Under the pieces are notes generated by a model. That model was not told the origin of the DNA. It saw only the letters and a program-made list of their open reading frames with translations, and ran no database searches. From Chitinophaga sp. XS-30 (lineage in GTDB: Bacteria > Bacteroidota > Bacteroidia > Chitinophagales > Chitinophagaceae), in the NCBI RefSeq assembly GCF_008086345.1, contig NZ_CP043006.1, positions 1,176,032 to 1,240,031 of the forward strand: 64,000 nucleotides of DNA, in the 5' to 3' direction. This document shows, piece after piece, positions 58,097 through 64,000 of the stretch. How positions within the stretch are numbered: position 1 is the stretch's first letter; every line of letters begins with the position of its first letter. The position numbers were made by a program, and so were the translations under genes.

Positions 58097-59431
58097 TCAA
58101 TTATTCAGCAATACAAAGAAGGTAGTGCCCTTGCCGGGAGGGCTGCTTACTTTCAGCTGACCGCCATGCATCTGGATGATCTGCTGCGAAAGGCTCAGCC
58201 CGATGCCGGAACCTTTCTTTTTAGTGGTGAAAAAGGGAATAAAGATCTTTTCCATCGCTTCTGTTTCAATGCCGGGCCCATTGTCCGTTATTTCGATGAT
58301 GATCTGTGAAGCGTTGCCCATAGAGCCTTTCACACTGATCCACGGTTCTCCGGTATGTTCCAGTGCATCCATGGCATTTTTGATCAGGTTGATCAGCACC
58401 ATCTGCAATTGTGCGGCATCGGCATGCACCATGATATTGTCCGGTGAAACATGGGCGCGGTACGAAATACCGGCGGCTTTCATTTCAGGCTGCAGCAGGT
58501 TGCTGATGGTATTGATCAGTTGTTTCAGATTGATGCTGGTGAACTGCGGCTTGGGCAATGTGGTATAGTCGCGGTACGCGTTCACAAAATTCATGATGCC
58601 CTTGCTCCGGCTTTCGATGGTGACCAGTGCTTCTTTCAGGTCGTCCATCGCTTCTGTCTGTGAAGTGTTCATCGGGATATCATGCTCCACGATCTCCTGC
58701 ATGGTGCCGATGAGGCTGACGATCGGGGTCACGGAATTCATGATCTCATGCCGCAGTATCTTCGTGAGGTTCTGCCAGGCCTCCAGTTCTTTTTGCTGCA
58801 ACTCTGCATGGATGTTCTGCAAAGAGATGAGTTTCACAAAGCGCCCCTGCAATCTTACGGATGCGGCATGGATGGAAAGCTGCTGCCCGTTCTGCGTGGC
58901 GTACAGGGCCTTCTGGCCGGCCGGCAGGTCCTGCAACAACTCCGCCAGTTTGGGATGGGCATGCTTCAGTTCATCCAGGTAGCGGAGACGGTAGATGCCC
59001 ATCAGCCGGAAAGCCGCGGGGTTGATCAGTTCTATCTTTCCGTCACTGCCGAAGGATAGTATGCCGATGCTGATATGCTGAATGATGGTATCAATGTATT
59101 TGAGGTTGGCCTCGCGTTCGGCCCGTGTTTGCCGGAAAGCTTCCAGCACTTCGTTGAACTGGTGGTTGAGGGCGCTGAAGCTTTTGCCCAGCTTGTTGTC
59201 CGCACTGAAACGAATGGAGAAATCCTCATACCGGATAGCTTCCAGGAACAGGGTGAGCTTGCGGTTCACACGGTTCAGATAATGATAGAGGGAGAATACC
59301 TGTGCCAGCAGTACGGGAACTACCAGTACTGCCATTAGCTGGTAGTCATTCCACCAGCACCAGCACCCGGCCGTGATGGTAAATACCAGCAGCAGGATGC
59401 GCAACAGGATATTGTAACCGAAGCGCTTCAT
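58097..59431 (-). CDS. Membrane sensor histidine kinase (NtrB-like)
   Basis: The 444-aa protein has two N-terminal membrane helices close together (about 8-44, so little periplasmic sensor), a HAMP-like stretch, a PAS-like segment (SIGILSFGSDGKIELINPAA), an H-box LRHEIMNSVTPIV (phospho-His near 228) and ATPase motifs DNGPGIE, GSGIGLSLSQQ. Its start follows the regulator's stop with no gap (TGA immediately followed by ATG), so the two are translationally coupled. With the NtrC-type partner it should control sigma-54 genes, likely the divergent efflux operon. Confidence 0.94.
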   Translation of the reverse strand: MKRFGYNILLRILLLVFTITAGCWCWWNDYQLMAVLVVPVLLAQVFSLYHYLNRVNRKLTLFLEAIRYEDFSIRFSADNKLGKSFSALNHQFNEVLEAFRQTRAEREANLKYIDTIIQHISIGILSFGSDGKIELINPAAFRLMGIYRLRYLDELKHAHPKLAELLQDLPAGQKALYATQNGQQLSIHAASVRLQGRFVKLISLQNIHAELQQKELEAWQNLTKILRHEIMNSVTPIVSLIGTMQEIVEHDIPMNTSQTEAMDDLKEALVTIESRSKGIMNFVNAYRDYTTLPKPQFTSINLKQLINTISNLLQPEMKAAGISYRAHVSPDNIMVHADAAQLQMVLINLIKNAMDALEHTGEPWISVKGSMGNASQIIIEITDNGPGIETEAMEKIFIPFFTTKKKGSGIGLSLSQQIIQMHGGQLKVSSPPGKGTTFFVLLNN

Positions 59432-60778
59432 TCAGAGGTTATATTTTTCCATGCGGCGGTACAGCGCGGCGCGGCTCAGGCCCAGTTCTTTTGCGGCATC
59501 TGTAATGTTGCCATTGCATTTTTTCAACGCCTGGGATATCATGTTCCTTTCCATGTCTTCGAGGTTGAAGCCGGTATCCAGTGTTTCGGCGGCTGTATTT
59601 GTTTTTACAAACACGTCCCTGGGCATTAATGTTTTGCCCTGGCAGAGGATCACGGCTCTTTCGATGGCATGTTGCAGTTCGCGGATATTGCCGGGCCATT
59701 CGTATTGCTCCAGCTGGGTGATCAGCGTATCATGAAGAAAGGCCACCGGCCGGTTGTACTTTCTGCGGTAGATGCCGAGGAAGTATTCTGCGAGCGGCAC
59801 AATATCTTCTTTTCGTTCCCGGAGCGGTGGAAGATGTATTTCGATGGTATTGACACGGTAAAGCAGGTCCTGGCGGAATTGCTGCTGCGCGGCCATTTGC
59901 TGGATGTTCCGGTTAGTGGCGCAGATAAGGCGCACATCCAGCGGAAGGGCTTTGTTGGAGCCTACCCTGGTGATCTGGCGGTTCTGTAGTACGGTGAGGA
60001 GCTTGGCCTGAAAGGGGAGGGCAATGTTCCCGATCTCGTCGAGGAAAATGGTGCCGGAGTTGGCTTCTTCAAAGCGACCGCTGCGGTCTTCCCGGGCATC
60101 CGTGAAGGCGCCTTTTACATGGCCGAAAAGTTCGCTTTCGAACAGCGTTTCGCTCAGCGCGCCGAGGTCTACCGGAACGAATTTTTTATCCTTCCGCTGG
60201 CTCAGGGCGTGAATGTGCCTGGCCAGCAGGTCTTTTCCCGTGCCGTTCTCCCCCAGGATGAGGATGTTGGCATCCGTAGCGGCTACGCGGGAAACGGTTT
60301 CCATCACTTCCTGCATGCCCGGGCTGTCGCCGATCAGCACATTATCAGTATGCAGGGTAGCGCCGCCGGACTTTTTCTCCTGTGCCGCCTGGTGCGTAGT
60401 GACGGCCGTCTGGATAGTCGCCAGCAGCTTGTCGTTCTCCCAGGGTTTCAGCACAAAGTCCACTGCGCCGGCCTTGATGGCACGCACGGCCATTTCCACA
60501 TCGCCATAAGCGGTGAAAAGCACCACTGTGGCCTTGGGATTGATGTCCAGTATCTTGTCCAGCCATTCAAAACCTTCTTTTCCGCTGCTCAGGTCACGCG
60601 TGAAGTTCATATCCAGCAGTATGACATCATAGTCGAAATTGGTGACCAGGTAGGGGATCTTCTGCGGGTTCTTCTCGAAATCCACCTGCGTGAAATGCCT
60701 TTTCAGCAGCAGCCTTGCGGCGCGCAATACATCTACATCATCATCAACGATCAGGATCTTTCCTTGCTGAGTACTCAT
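59432..60778 (-). CDS. Sigma-54-dependent response regulator (NtrC family)
   Basis: The 448-aa protein has a receiver domain with VDDDVDVL and phospho-acceptor D near 56 (ILLDMNF), an AAA+ domain with Walker A GENGTGKD near 175-182, the sigma-54 contact loop as GAFTDA (canonical GAFTGA) near 221-226, and a Fis-type C-terminal helix-turn-helix ([17 protein letters not shown]). The G to D change in the contact loop is noteworthy. It is divergent from the HlyD/ABC operon; two 16-bp palindromic elements lie between them. Confidence 0.95.
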
Positions 60779-60948
60779 CTTTTGAATAAATTAATAGTTC
60801 CAAATGGTGATCGCAAAACGCATTCCGTTCGGCGTGGATGCGGCAGGTTCCCGCCAGGTCATAACAGAGAAGCGGCCCTGAGCAATATTAAACAAAGATT
60901 TTTTTCTGCCGGCGGCTTATTTTGAAAGCGTCCGGGCGCCTCCGGAAC

Positions 60949-60985
60949 TGTCCGATACCGGACACCCCTTGTCCGCTTTGGAACA
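60949..60985 (+). promoter_or_regulatory. Two 16-bp enhancer-like elements 21 bp apart
   Basis: TGTCCGATACCGGACA (60949-60964) is a perfect palindromic-arm element (TGTCCG-N4-CGGACA). A related copy, TGTCCGCTTTGGAACA (60970-60985), has the same length and the left half intact. Start-to-start distance is 21 bp, two turns of DNA. They lie about 85-110 bp upstream of the sigma-54-type promoter, the usual place of NtrC-family binding sites. Confidence 0.7.
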
Positions 60986-61049
60986 GGAGGTATATTCACT
61001 GACTTGTCTGAAAGGGCCACAGCCCTGTGTTTGAGCGTTTGGCACGGCT

Positions 61050-61065
61050 TGGCACATGGATTGGG
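61050..61065 (+). promoter_or_regulatory. Near-consensus sigma-54 (-24/-12) promoter
   Basis: TGGCAC (61050-61055), 5 bp, TTGGG (61061-61065) compares with consensus TGGCAC-N5-TTGCA. Spacing is right; the -12 GC is GG. Another TTGGCAC occurs exactly 10 bp upstream. Transcription would start near 61075, 15 nt before the HlyD-like gene's ATG. Confidence 0.45.
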
Positions 61066-61089
61066 TATGTTCCGGCAGCAATTACGATC

Positions 61090-62337
61090 ATGGACAGACA
61101 ACTTAAAAAGAAATTCTGGAACAAGCAACGCATCTTCCTCGCTGGCGGCGGCGGTACACTGGTACTGCTCGTACTCTGGGGATTCATTTTTGCCGATAAA
61201 AGAAGCAAACTGAATGTGGAGAAAGACAAGATCACCATTTCCGCTGTTTCCAAAGGTGTTTTTGATGAATACATCGTGGTAACCGCCGTGGTGCACCCGC
61301 TCAAGACCATCCGCCTGGATGCTATTGAAGGCGGCTATGTGGCCAACAAATTCCTGGAAGGCGGCAGCATGGTGAAAGCGGGGGATTCCATTCTCCGCCT
61401 GGAAAACCAGCGGCTGACCATGGAATTCGTGAACCGGGAAACAGAAATGTACCGGCTGATCAACGAACTGCAGAATACAAGGCTGCGCTTGCGGCAAGAC
61501 CGGTTTGCGCTGGAAAAGACCCTCAGCGACCTCGATTATCAGGTGGACCAGGCCAAAGACCTGTATGAACGCAACCACAAGCTGTTCAAAGACAAGGTGG
61601 TGGCCGAACAGGAATATCTGAAAACGAAACGGGACTATGAACGGCTGGCGCGTCAGCGCGAAATAGAGGTGCAATCGCAGGACTATCAGATCAAAAATTC
61701 GGTGACGCAGATCGAGCAGTTGGAGGGCACCATCTCCCGTACGCAGCGCAACCTCCAGCTGATGAAGGAAAATCTTAAGAACCTGGTAGTGAGGGCCCCG
61801 GTTGACGGGCAGCTGTCATCCATCAATGTGGAGGTAGGCACGAGTATTCAGGCAGGGGAGAATATCGGGCAGATCGATGATATGGACGGGTTCAAGATGC
61901 GCGCCGAAGTAGATGAACACTATATTTCCCGCGTATTCACCGGCTTGAACGCCAATTTCGAGTTCAACGGGAAAGCACACCCGATGACAATAGCCAAAGT
62001 GTACCCGGAAGTAAAGAACGGGCGCTTTGAAGTAGACATGAATTTTTCAACAGCGGTGCCGGAAGGGATCCGCCGCGGGCAATCCTCTCCTATCCGCCTT
62101 GAATTGGGAAAAGCATCAGAAGCTGTATTATTGCCTGCAGGAGGATTCTTTTCCGACACCGGAGGCAACTGGGTGTATGTGGTGGACAACAGCGGGAAAC
62201 GTGCTGTGAAACGCAAGATCTCCCTGGGCCGCAAGAACCCTGTTTATTTCGAAGTACTGGAGGGCCTGCAGCCGGGCGACCAGGTGATCACGTCCTCTTA
62301 CGAGAATTTCGGGGACAAGGAAGTATTGGAATTTTAA
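61090..62337 (+). CDS. HlyD/MacA-like membrane fusion protein
   Basis: The 415-aa protein has one N-terminal membrane helix (about 17-36), a biotinyl-lipoyl-like region split by a long coiled-coil hairpin (about 105-230), a beta-barrel domain and a membrane-proximal domain: the adaptor layout of MacAB-type exporters. ATG 61090 (MDRQLKKKF) is preferred to a GTG at 61027, because the GTG lies upstream of the predicted sigma-54 promoter. It heads an operon with an ABC ATPase and a FtsX-like permease. Confidence 0.92.
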   Translation: MDRQLKKKFWNKQRIFLAGGGGTLVLLVLWGFIFADKRSKLNVEKDKITISAVSKGVFDEYIVVTAVVHPLKTIRLDAIEGGYVANKFLEGGSMVKAGDSILRLENQRLTMEFVNRETEMYRLINELQNTRLRLRQDRFALEKTLSDLDYQVDQAKDLYERNHKLFKDKVVAEQEYLKTKRDYERLARQREIEVQSQDYQIKNSVTQIEQLEGTISRTQRNLQLMKENLKNLVVRAPVDGQLSSINVEVGTSIQAGENIGQIDDMDGFKMRAEVDEHYISRVFTGLNANFEFNGKAHPMTIAKVYPEVKNGRFEVDMNFSTAVPEGIRRGQSSPIRLELGKASEAVLLPAGGFFSDTGGNWVYVVDNSGKRAVKRKISLGRKNPVYFEVLEGLQPGDQVITSSYENFGDKEVLEF

Positions 62338-62368: not shown

Positions 62369-63058
62369 ATGATCAGAACAGTCAACTTGCAAAAACTCTT
62401 TACAACGGAAGAAGTAGAAACCACAGCGCTGAACGGCATTAACATGGATGTGCAGGATGGTGAGTTTGTGGCGATCATGGGGCCCTCAGGCTGCGGTAAA
62501 TCCACTTTGCTGAACATTCTGGGCCTGCTGGATAATCCTTCCGATGGTGAATATCATTTCTGGGATAAGGAAGTGGCCAGGATGAGCGAACGCCAGCGTG
62601 CGCAGCTCCGTAAAGGCTCTATCGGCTTCGTGTTCCAGAGCTTCAACCTCATTGATGAACTGACCGTGTTCGAGAATGTGGAGTTGCCGCTGCTCTACCT
62701 CAAAGTACCCGCCAGTGAAAGAAAACAGCGGGTGGAGCAGGTTCTGGAGCGCATGAGCATCATGCATCGCCGCAACCACTTTCCACAGCAGCTTTCCGGC
62801 GGTCAGCAACAGCGGGTGGCTATTGCCCGCGCCGTAGTGGCAAAGCCAAAGCTGATCCTTGCGGATGAGCCTACCGGTAACCTCGATTCCGCCAACGGCG
62901 AAGAGGTCATGAAGTTGCTGCAGGAACTGAATGATGCGGGAACTACCCTCATCATGGTTACGCATTCCCCGTACGATGCCGGTTTTGCGCACCGCATTGT
63001 GAATCTTTTCGACGGAAAGGTGGTCACCGAGAATATCAAGGAACAGTTTCACATATAA
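62369..63058 (+). CDS. ABC transporter ATP-binding protein (MacB/LolD type)
   Basis: The 229-aa ATPase has Walker A GPSGCGKST near 38-46, signature LSGGQQQR near 140-147, Walker B LILADEP near 166-172 and the H-loop VTHS. Sequence and context are those of MacB/LolD-type ATPases that drive FtsX-like permeases in mechanotransmission rather than classical transport. It lies 31 bp after the adaptor gene and 4 bp before the 63-aa gene. Confidence 0.95.
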   Translation: MIRTVNLQKLFTTEEVETTALNGINMDVQDGEFVAIMGPSGCGKSTLLNILGLLDNPSDGEYHFWDKEVARMSERQRAQLRKGSIGFVFQSFNLIDELTVFENVELPLLYLKVPASERKQRVEQVLERMSIMHRRNHFPQQLSGGQQQRVAIARAVVAKPKLILADEPTGNLDSANGEEVMKLLQELNDAGTTLIMVTHSPYDAGFAHRIVNLFDGKVVTENIKEQFHI

Positions 63059-63062
63059 AGTC

Positions 63063-63254
63063 ATGGAAAAGCTGATCGCCGCCTTCGTCAACAGGTCTAC
63101 CGCACCGCCACCCGTTTCCGGGGACGGGCTCCATTATTCCGGTTGGGCGATGATGGACATCATCCCCTGGATGGCCATTCCCCTGCTGCTGGTGCTGTTT
63201 GCAGGGCTTTATTTCATGAGCCTCAGCAGAAGGAAACATCAGCCATTGCATTAA
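63063..63254 (+). CDS. Small single-pass membrane protein, 63 aa
   Basis: A 63-aa protein with a polar N-terminal part (MEKLIAAFVNRSTAPPPVSG), a membrane helix near 31-52 (DIIPWMAIPLLLVLFAGLYF) and a basic C-terminus SRRKHQPLH. It starts 4 bp after the ABC ATPase stop, inside the efflux operon, which suggests translational coupling and an accessory role. No family is recognised. The 71-bp gap to the permease holds no other gene. Confidence 0.6.
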   Translation: MEKLIAAFVNRSTAPPPVSGDGLHYSGWAMMDIIPWMAIPLLLVLFAGLYFMSLSRRKHQPLH

Positions 63255-63325: not shown

Positions 63326-64000
63326 ATGTTCAGGAACTACATCAAAATAGCATGGCGCAACATATGGAAAGCAAAGCAAATCTCGTTCGTGAATATCACG
63401 GGACTCGCAGTTGCGACCGCAGTGGCTTTACTGTTATGTCTTACGGTGTACAGGGAATTCACTTTTGATGATTTTCACGAAAGGAAGAAAGACATTTACA
63501 TGGTCTACATGGACGAGTATTACCCCGAACGGACCAGCTCCCGGGCGAACATGGCGCATCCCCTGGCGCCTGCCCTCCAGCAGGAAATACCGGGCATAAA
63601 AGCAGTCACCCGTTACGCGAATGACGGGGCCAGCGTGCGTGTCGGCGAAGCAACGGGGGACGCGAGTGTTCATTGTGTGGATACCGGCTTCCTGCAAATT
63701 TTCTCCTTTCCTGCTGTGAGCGGACGACCTGAACTGGGCGTGAATGATGTGATCATCACCGAAGAAACTGCATTGCGGTTCTTCAAAGGCCAGGACCCCG
63801 TAGGAAAAAGCATGACCCTGAGCCGCGGCAACAAATGGGAAAATTTCAGGGTCACCGCCGTGCTGAAAGATCCGCCTTCCAATTCGAGCCTTGAGTTCGA
63901 TATGCTACTGCGCATCGAGAATGGCTATGGTTACCAGGACAATAAAAACGAATGGGAGCATTTCAGCCTGATGACCTTCGTGGAGCTCATGCCCGGCGTT
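63326..64000 (+). CDS. FtsX-like ABC permease (MacB type), cut by window end
   Basis: The frame is open to the end of the window (225 codons seen). Residues 1-45 hold the first membrane helix (NITGLAVATAVALLLCLTVY) after a basic start MFRNYIKIAWRNIWK; the rest is the MacB periplasmic domain, with VIITEETALRFFKGQDPVGK near 139-158. Chitinophaga-type genomes carry many such permeases of about 800 aa. It completes the efflux operon with the HlyD-like adaptor and ABC ATPase. Confidence 0.92.
   Translation, partial: MFRNYIKIAWRNIWKAKQISFVNITGLAVATAVALLLCLTVYREFTFDDFHERKKDIYMVYMDEYYPERTSSRANMAHPLAPALQQEIPGIKAVTRYANDGASVRVGEATGDASVHCVDTGFLQIFSFPAVSGRPELGVNDVIITEETALRFFKGQDPVGKSMTLSRGNKWENFRVTAVLKDPPSNSSLEFDMLLRIENGYGYQDNKNEWEHFSLMTFVELMPGV

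Follow-up and report, generated by a model that had tools for sequence, protein, structure and literature searches.

A predicted sigma-54 circuit linking an adaptor/ATPase operon to dispersed orphan permeases in Chitinophaga

The regulators NtrC, ZraR and AtoC share a REC-AAA+-Fis HTH architecture, a divergently transcribed regulator gene and a -24/-12 promoter that is preceded, at a distance of about 100 bp, by paired dyads, and the locus studied here has the same anatomy. In the Bacteroidota, a start-site map of Flavobacterium psychrophilum tied a -24/-12 regulon to envelope stress and gliding (PMC9723704). A promoter-matrix study of 2025 predicted that FtsX-like permeases (COG0577) of Bacteroidia are under sigma-54 control, reported there as the first evidence of this link; the study notes that its approach did not include information on the specificity of enhancer-binding proteins (PMC12316311). 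Bacteroidota genomes contain many orphan FtsX/MacB-type permeases of ~800 aa without an assigned role, in places dozens of them in tandem.

The DNA that we analysed (hereafter the window) covers 64,000 nucleotides (G000:C1:1176032-1240031) of the 6.18 Mb single-contig genome of Chitinophaga sp. XS-30. It encodes on the minus strand an NtrC-type response regulator (59432..60778) followed by a sensor histidine kinase (58097..59431). On the plus strand, the predicted controlled operon starts with a HlyD/RND-type periplasmic adaptor (61090..62337) and continues with an ABC ATPase of the LolD/MacB-nucleotide-binding type (62369..63058), a 63-aa single-TM protein that is kept in the closest Chitinophaga (63063..63254), and a MacB_PCD permease of 799 aa, the start of which occupies 63326..64000 and which extends beyond the window. 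This permease holds two MacB_PCD stretches, i.e., the domain is duplicated. Past the window edge the complete order is HlyD-ABC-63aa-permease-ABC-TolC-like-HlyD, with two ATPases and two adaptors. The first-pass annotation had described a regulator/kinase pair divergent from a HlyD-ABC-FtsX operon, which is the gene order that we found. Its label for the operon, MacAB-like, suits the HlyD, permease and TolC-like components but is loose, because the ATPases are on separate chains.

The Pfam domains of the regulator (Response_reg, Sigma54_activat and HTH_8) are those of the NtrC-type architecture: a REC domain, a sigma-54 AAA+ domain and a Fis-type HTH. This protein is the predicted activator. 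Among PDB structures the NtrC-family chain 4l4u matches it best (residues 8-447), and its nearest relatives are in C. cymbidii (94%), then in other Chitinophaga. The sigma-54 contact loop reads GAFTDA in the window and GAFTDA or GAYTDA in 80/80 orthologues, against the canonical GAFTGA; both forms are among the loop variants listed as activity-retaining in Desulfovibrio (PMC4641369). The genome has one rpoN gene. The kinase has hydropathy segments at residues 8-24 and 32-48, similar in its relatives, which gives two TM helices separated by a very short loop (less than ~25 residues) and no extracytoplasmic sensor domain, a two-TM, few-residue-loop layout that we take to be of the intramembrane-sensing type. 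In Bacillota, kinases of this type (BceS) receive their signal from an FtsX-family permease; comparable signalling from a permease to the window kinase is, by this analogy, only an idea. The kinase gene follows that of the regulator in 48/80 loci, and does not do so in 32 of the 36 loci of the Dyadobacter group (tblastn).

The region between the divergent genes holds two 16-bp dyads, TGTCCGATACCGGACA (60949..60964) and TGTCCGCTTTGGAACA (60970..60985), which are the candidate enhancer sites 1 and 2 and whose start-to-start distance is 21 bp, as first annotated. Both fit TGTCCG-N4-SGRACA and are the only perfect matches in the window; with up to one mismatch, this motif occurs six times in the 64 kb, against 0.78 expected (mean of 100 shuffles; the largest value was 4). 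A strict palindrome count over the whole genome mixed true sites with coding strays, and we used an adaptor-trained matrix and a half-site pair rule instead. Downstream of the dyads lies a sigma-54-type -24/-12 box, TGGCACATGGATTGG (61050..61064, plus strand), with a predicted +1 at ~61076, about 14 nt before the adaptor ATG. The box had been placed 15 nt before the adaptor start, a distance that has to be corrected to 24-25 nt, with the ATG at 61090. When compared with the sigma-54 consensus TGGCAC-N5-TTGC (GG and GC 10 bp apart), the -24 half and the spacing match, whereas the -12 part reads TTGG in the window and has its C changed to G or A in 74/78 loci. The -12 half is more degenerate before permeases than before adaptors. 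By itself, the box pattern was found twice in the window against 1.94 expected, no excess over chance, and the box is therefore established only by its conservation. The conserved box is preceded, exactly 10 bp upstream, by an extra TGGCAC (61040..61045, plus strand) that lacks a -12 TTG and lies at the phase (69-71 bp) found in other Chitinophaga; this duplication of the -24 element is shared with the closest relatives only (the subgroup of the window) and resembles a slippage of the promoter by one helical turn. We also observed that the GAFTDA loop co-occurs with TTGG or TTGA instead of TTGC at -12 (regulators of the window and of L019; promoters in L046-L125), a possible co-evolution of activator loop and promoter.

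The arrangement was assessed in 81 loci, the window and 80 others fetched with the same regulator (64-94% identical) from Chitinophaga, Dyadobacter, Telluribacter, Larkinella, Runella and neighbours. A TGGCAY-N5-TTG box lies upstream of the adaptor in 78/81 loci, and a dyad pair upstream of the box in all 78. Since a pattern search was used to find the box, the conservation of its fixed letters is built in, and the independent facts are its presence and position. The dyad pairs were located by a free-spacing search, not by forcing 21 bp, and are spaced by 20 bp in 33 loci and by 21 bp in 45. Dyad 2 and the box are separated by 69-71 bp in 34 loci and by 79-81 bp in the other 44, with no intermediate values, i.e., there are two classes that differ by one helical turn. 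Among the three exceptions is L093, where the adaptor is displaced and its new upstream region still scores 34.6 with the adaptor-promoter matrix. The first-pass annotation had made its reading depend on conservation between relatives, and on this point it was borne out by 78 of the 81 loci.

The motif also occurs elsewhere in the genome. A search with the family PF12704 identified ten long (~800 aa) permease genes, nine of which are isolated from any transporter operon; relatives of the hub ATPase or adaptor were absent from the vicinity of all nine (12 kb stretches, within ~4 kb; tblastn E 1e-5). Just upstream of 9/9 of these orphans there is a half-site pair, [CTG]G[GA]AC[AG], 21-22 bp apart, with a TGGCR box 58-60 bp past the second half-site in 8/9. 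The combination of pair and box was absent both from the controls with short MacB/LolE/FtsX-type permeases (0/22) and from the upstream regions of other genes (0/676), whereas the pair without the box requirement occurs in 4/676 generic upstreams. The orphan permeases are old paralogues (median identity of 31%), and so their common motif does not simply result from recent duplication. Over several genomes, the distance from half-site to box is 48, 57-60, 69 or 79 bp, steps of about one turn that count for less as a statistic because some promoters share ancestry. A relaxed scan of the same genome retrieved 16 places (8 in the control). They comprise the window operon, eight orphan permeases, an intergenic locus resembling a small RNA and six coding-looking places. 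The intergenic locus (L011:1992-2170, G000:C1:3597891-3598070; also L208:1480-1690) has the dyad pair and a TGGCAC-N5-TTGC box, followed by a stretch of ~90 nt that ends in a strong terminator hairpin, and it is kept in C. cymbidii. An Rfam search of the locus was without meaningful match; from its sequence it looks like a sigma-54-controlled small RNA.

Our results suggest, with a probability that we put at about 0.8, that the NtrC-type regulator and sigma-54 activate both one adaptor/ATPase hub operon and a set of dispersed orphan permeases. The dyads would be the binding sites of the adjacent regulator (59432-60778), which, once phosphorylated, would bind them as side-by-side dimers on one DNA face and, via DNA looping, activate sigma-54 RNA polymerase at a TGGCAY-N5-TTGR promoter. 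Transcription would start near 61076 and run into the HlyD-ABC-permease-ABC-TolC-HlyD operon, with efflux as its putative function and antibiotic or envelope stress, as first suggested, as a possible signal. The same regulator would drive single, dispersed permease genes, nine in this genome, and because these have no ATPase nearby, they probably depend on the window operon as a hub for their ATPases and adaptors. Weighing against this model are the non-consensus -12 half, the presence of a second GAFTDA regulator with a very similar recognition helix, locus L012, which has the pair but no TGGCA, and the separation of kinase and regulator genes in 32 loci of the Dyadobacter group. The earlier interpretation, an enhancer pair and a sigma-54 promoter under the adjacent regulator, was thus probably right in mechanism, given the conservation, the fixed spacing, the helical phase and the recurrence of the elements. 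Its scope was too narrow, since by confining the circuit to one operon it left out the predicted regulon of dispersed permeases, which makes up most of the circuit.

A weight matrix trained on adaptor promoters alone was run on the 676 generic upstreams and scored at least 20 in four of them, three belonging to long permeases and one to the displaced adaptor of L093. In Dyadobacter, Larkinella and Runella (L127-L141), permeases of ~800 aa form very large tandem arrays that are interspersed with enhancer-type pairs. In these clusters (254 kb) we counted 23 strong pairs, and all those with a gene in range aim at a permease or adaptor on the same strand, about half of them from 500-1100 bp away from the assigned start, a distance that leaves room for small intervening genes. 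In Dyadobacter fermentans, the permease cluster starts right after the regulator-adaptor locus. The low fraction of cluster genes with a motif is probably explained by operon-internal genes and by promoters outside the 320 bp covered. When 296 Bacteroidia genomes were scanned blindly with TGCCA-N52-54-TGTYCG-N14-16-TGTYCG, 24 places in 15 genomes were retrieved, against 7 in the reversed control; two of the 24 are tandem-repeat artefacts and two (G105) are chance-like. Among the 16 loci from other genomes that we read, seven aim into a long permease, six into a HlyD gene beside a regulator with 48-62% identity (immediately divergent in five, with a TolC-like gene between in L196), and three are without explanation (L183, L186 and L197). 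Permeases linked to PadR (L159, which L178 and L179 resemble) fall outside this group. Motif-bearing genomes without a close regulator were considered as a counterexample and dropped: 8/8 examined have a window- or paralogue-type regulator, which the motif adjoins or lies near in five (G277, G285, G141, G044 and G299).

Only one other regulator of this genome has both the GAFTDA loop and a recognition helix of this kind, a paralogue (G000:C1:3337795-3339144) that is 44% identical to the window regulator, and cross-talk is therefore the main rival explanation. The paralogue would bind the orphan permease promoters, alone or with the window regulator, resulting in two overlapping regulons. We find this unlikely. 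In its favour, the recognition helices are very similar (TRSALYRR against SRAALYRR), the paralogue is encoded towards the end of a second operon, HlyD-TolC-ABC-FtsX-FtsX, whose promoter has TGTCCGATATCGAACG and a TGGCAC-N5-TTG box, and the half-sites in one class of permease promoters take the form GTATCAAAACCGGACA. Yet, the same half-site form, as GTATCAAAA-CGGACA or its CGAACA variant, precedes a HlyD gene divergent from a window-type regulator in two other families (L187 and L189), a placement which argues that the window-type regulator may itself read both forms. The second operon (L037:1553-9964) is self-contained: its gene order is HlyD-TolC-ABC-FtsX-FtsX-regulator-kinase, and it has a single dyad of similar form besides the TGGCAC-N5-TTG box.

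A much less probable reading is that an unrelated repressor or some other factor binds the dyads and that an ordinary Bacteroidota sigma-A promoter drives the operon. Perfect dyads are compatible with many families of factors, and the chance-level frequency of the box in the window fits this explanation too, but only 5/78 loci have the TAnnTTTG core of such promoters within 80 bp of the box, the helical phase between box and dyads is fixed in 78/78, and a position 100-120 bp upstream of the start is a poor one for a simple repressor. That the repeats arose by chance and have no function deserves almost no credence, since, even if the six matches in the window include single-mismatch strays, their conservation over families, their recurrence before nine genes and the 0/676 controls refute it computationally.

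The sigma-54 circuit proposed here may extend further. A regulon spanning the class Bacteroidia, made of one sigma-54 regulator, a kinase devoid of sensor domain, one ATPase/adaptor hub, swappable orphan permeases that borrow the hub ATPase and a small RNA, is a tentative extrapolation that we regard as somewhat doubtful; the permeases might then also act as sensors like BceB. With a promoter code in common and one predicted activator, the orphan permeases become testable for their function. The sigma-54 link, so far based on promoter statistics, also gains a defined candidate for its activator and for its enhancer.

In the literature outside subscription journals and preprints, our searches did not retrieve any account of the enhancer, of the activator or of the hub/orphan wiring, which is weak evidence of absence. 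The promoter-matrix study concerns the same target family and phylum, and the accessible part of it describes none of these three elements (PMC12316311). Relative to NtrC, ZraR and AtoC, the window regulator differs by its GAFTDA loop, by the TTGG/TTGA form of the -12 element and by its predicted targets, an adaptor/ATPase operon and permeases; it falls below all NCBIfam equivalog cut-offs among the matches listed. The darobactin exporter DarBCDE is the best NCBIfam match for the window adaptor, ATPase and permease, in all cases below the curated cut-offs. The likeness to MacAB-TolC lies in the HlyD-type adaptor, the MacB_PCD/FtsX permease and the TolC-like protein. However, MacB fuses ATPase and permease and has one MacB_PCD, whereas the window ATPase is separate and its permease duplicated, which sets the system apart from MacB proper. 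It further departs from MacAB-TolC by having two ATPases and two adaptors per operon, a permease of ~800 aa, and additional permeases dispersed in the genome.
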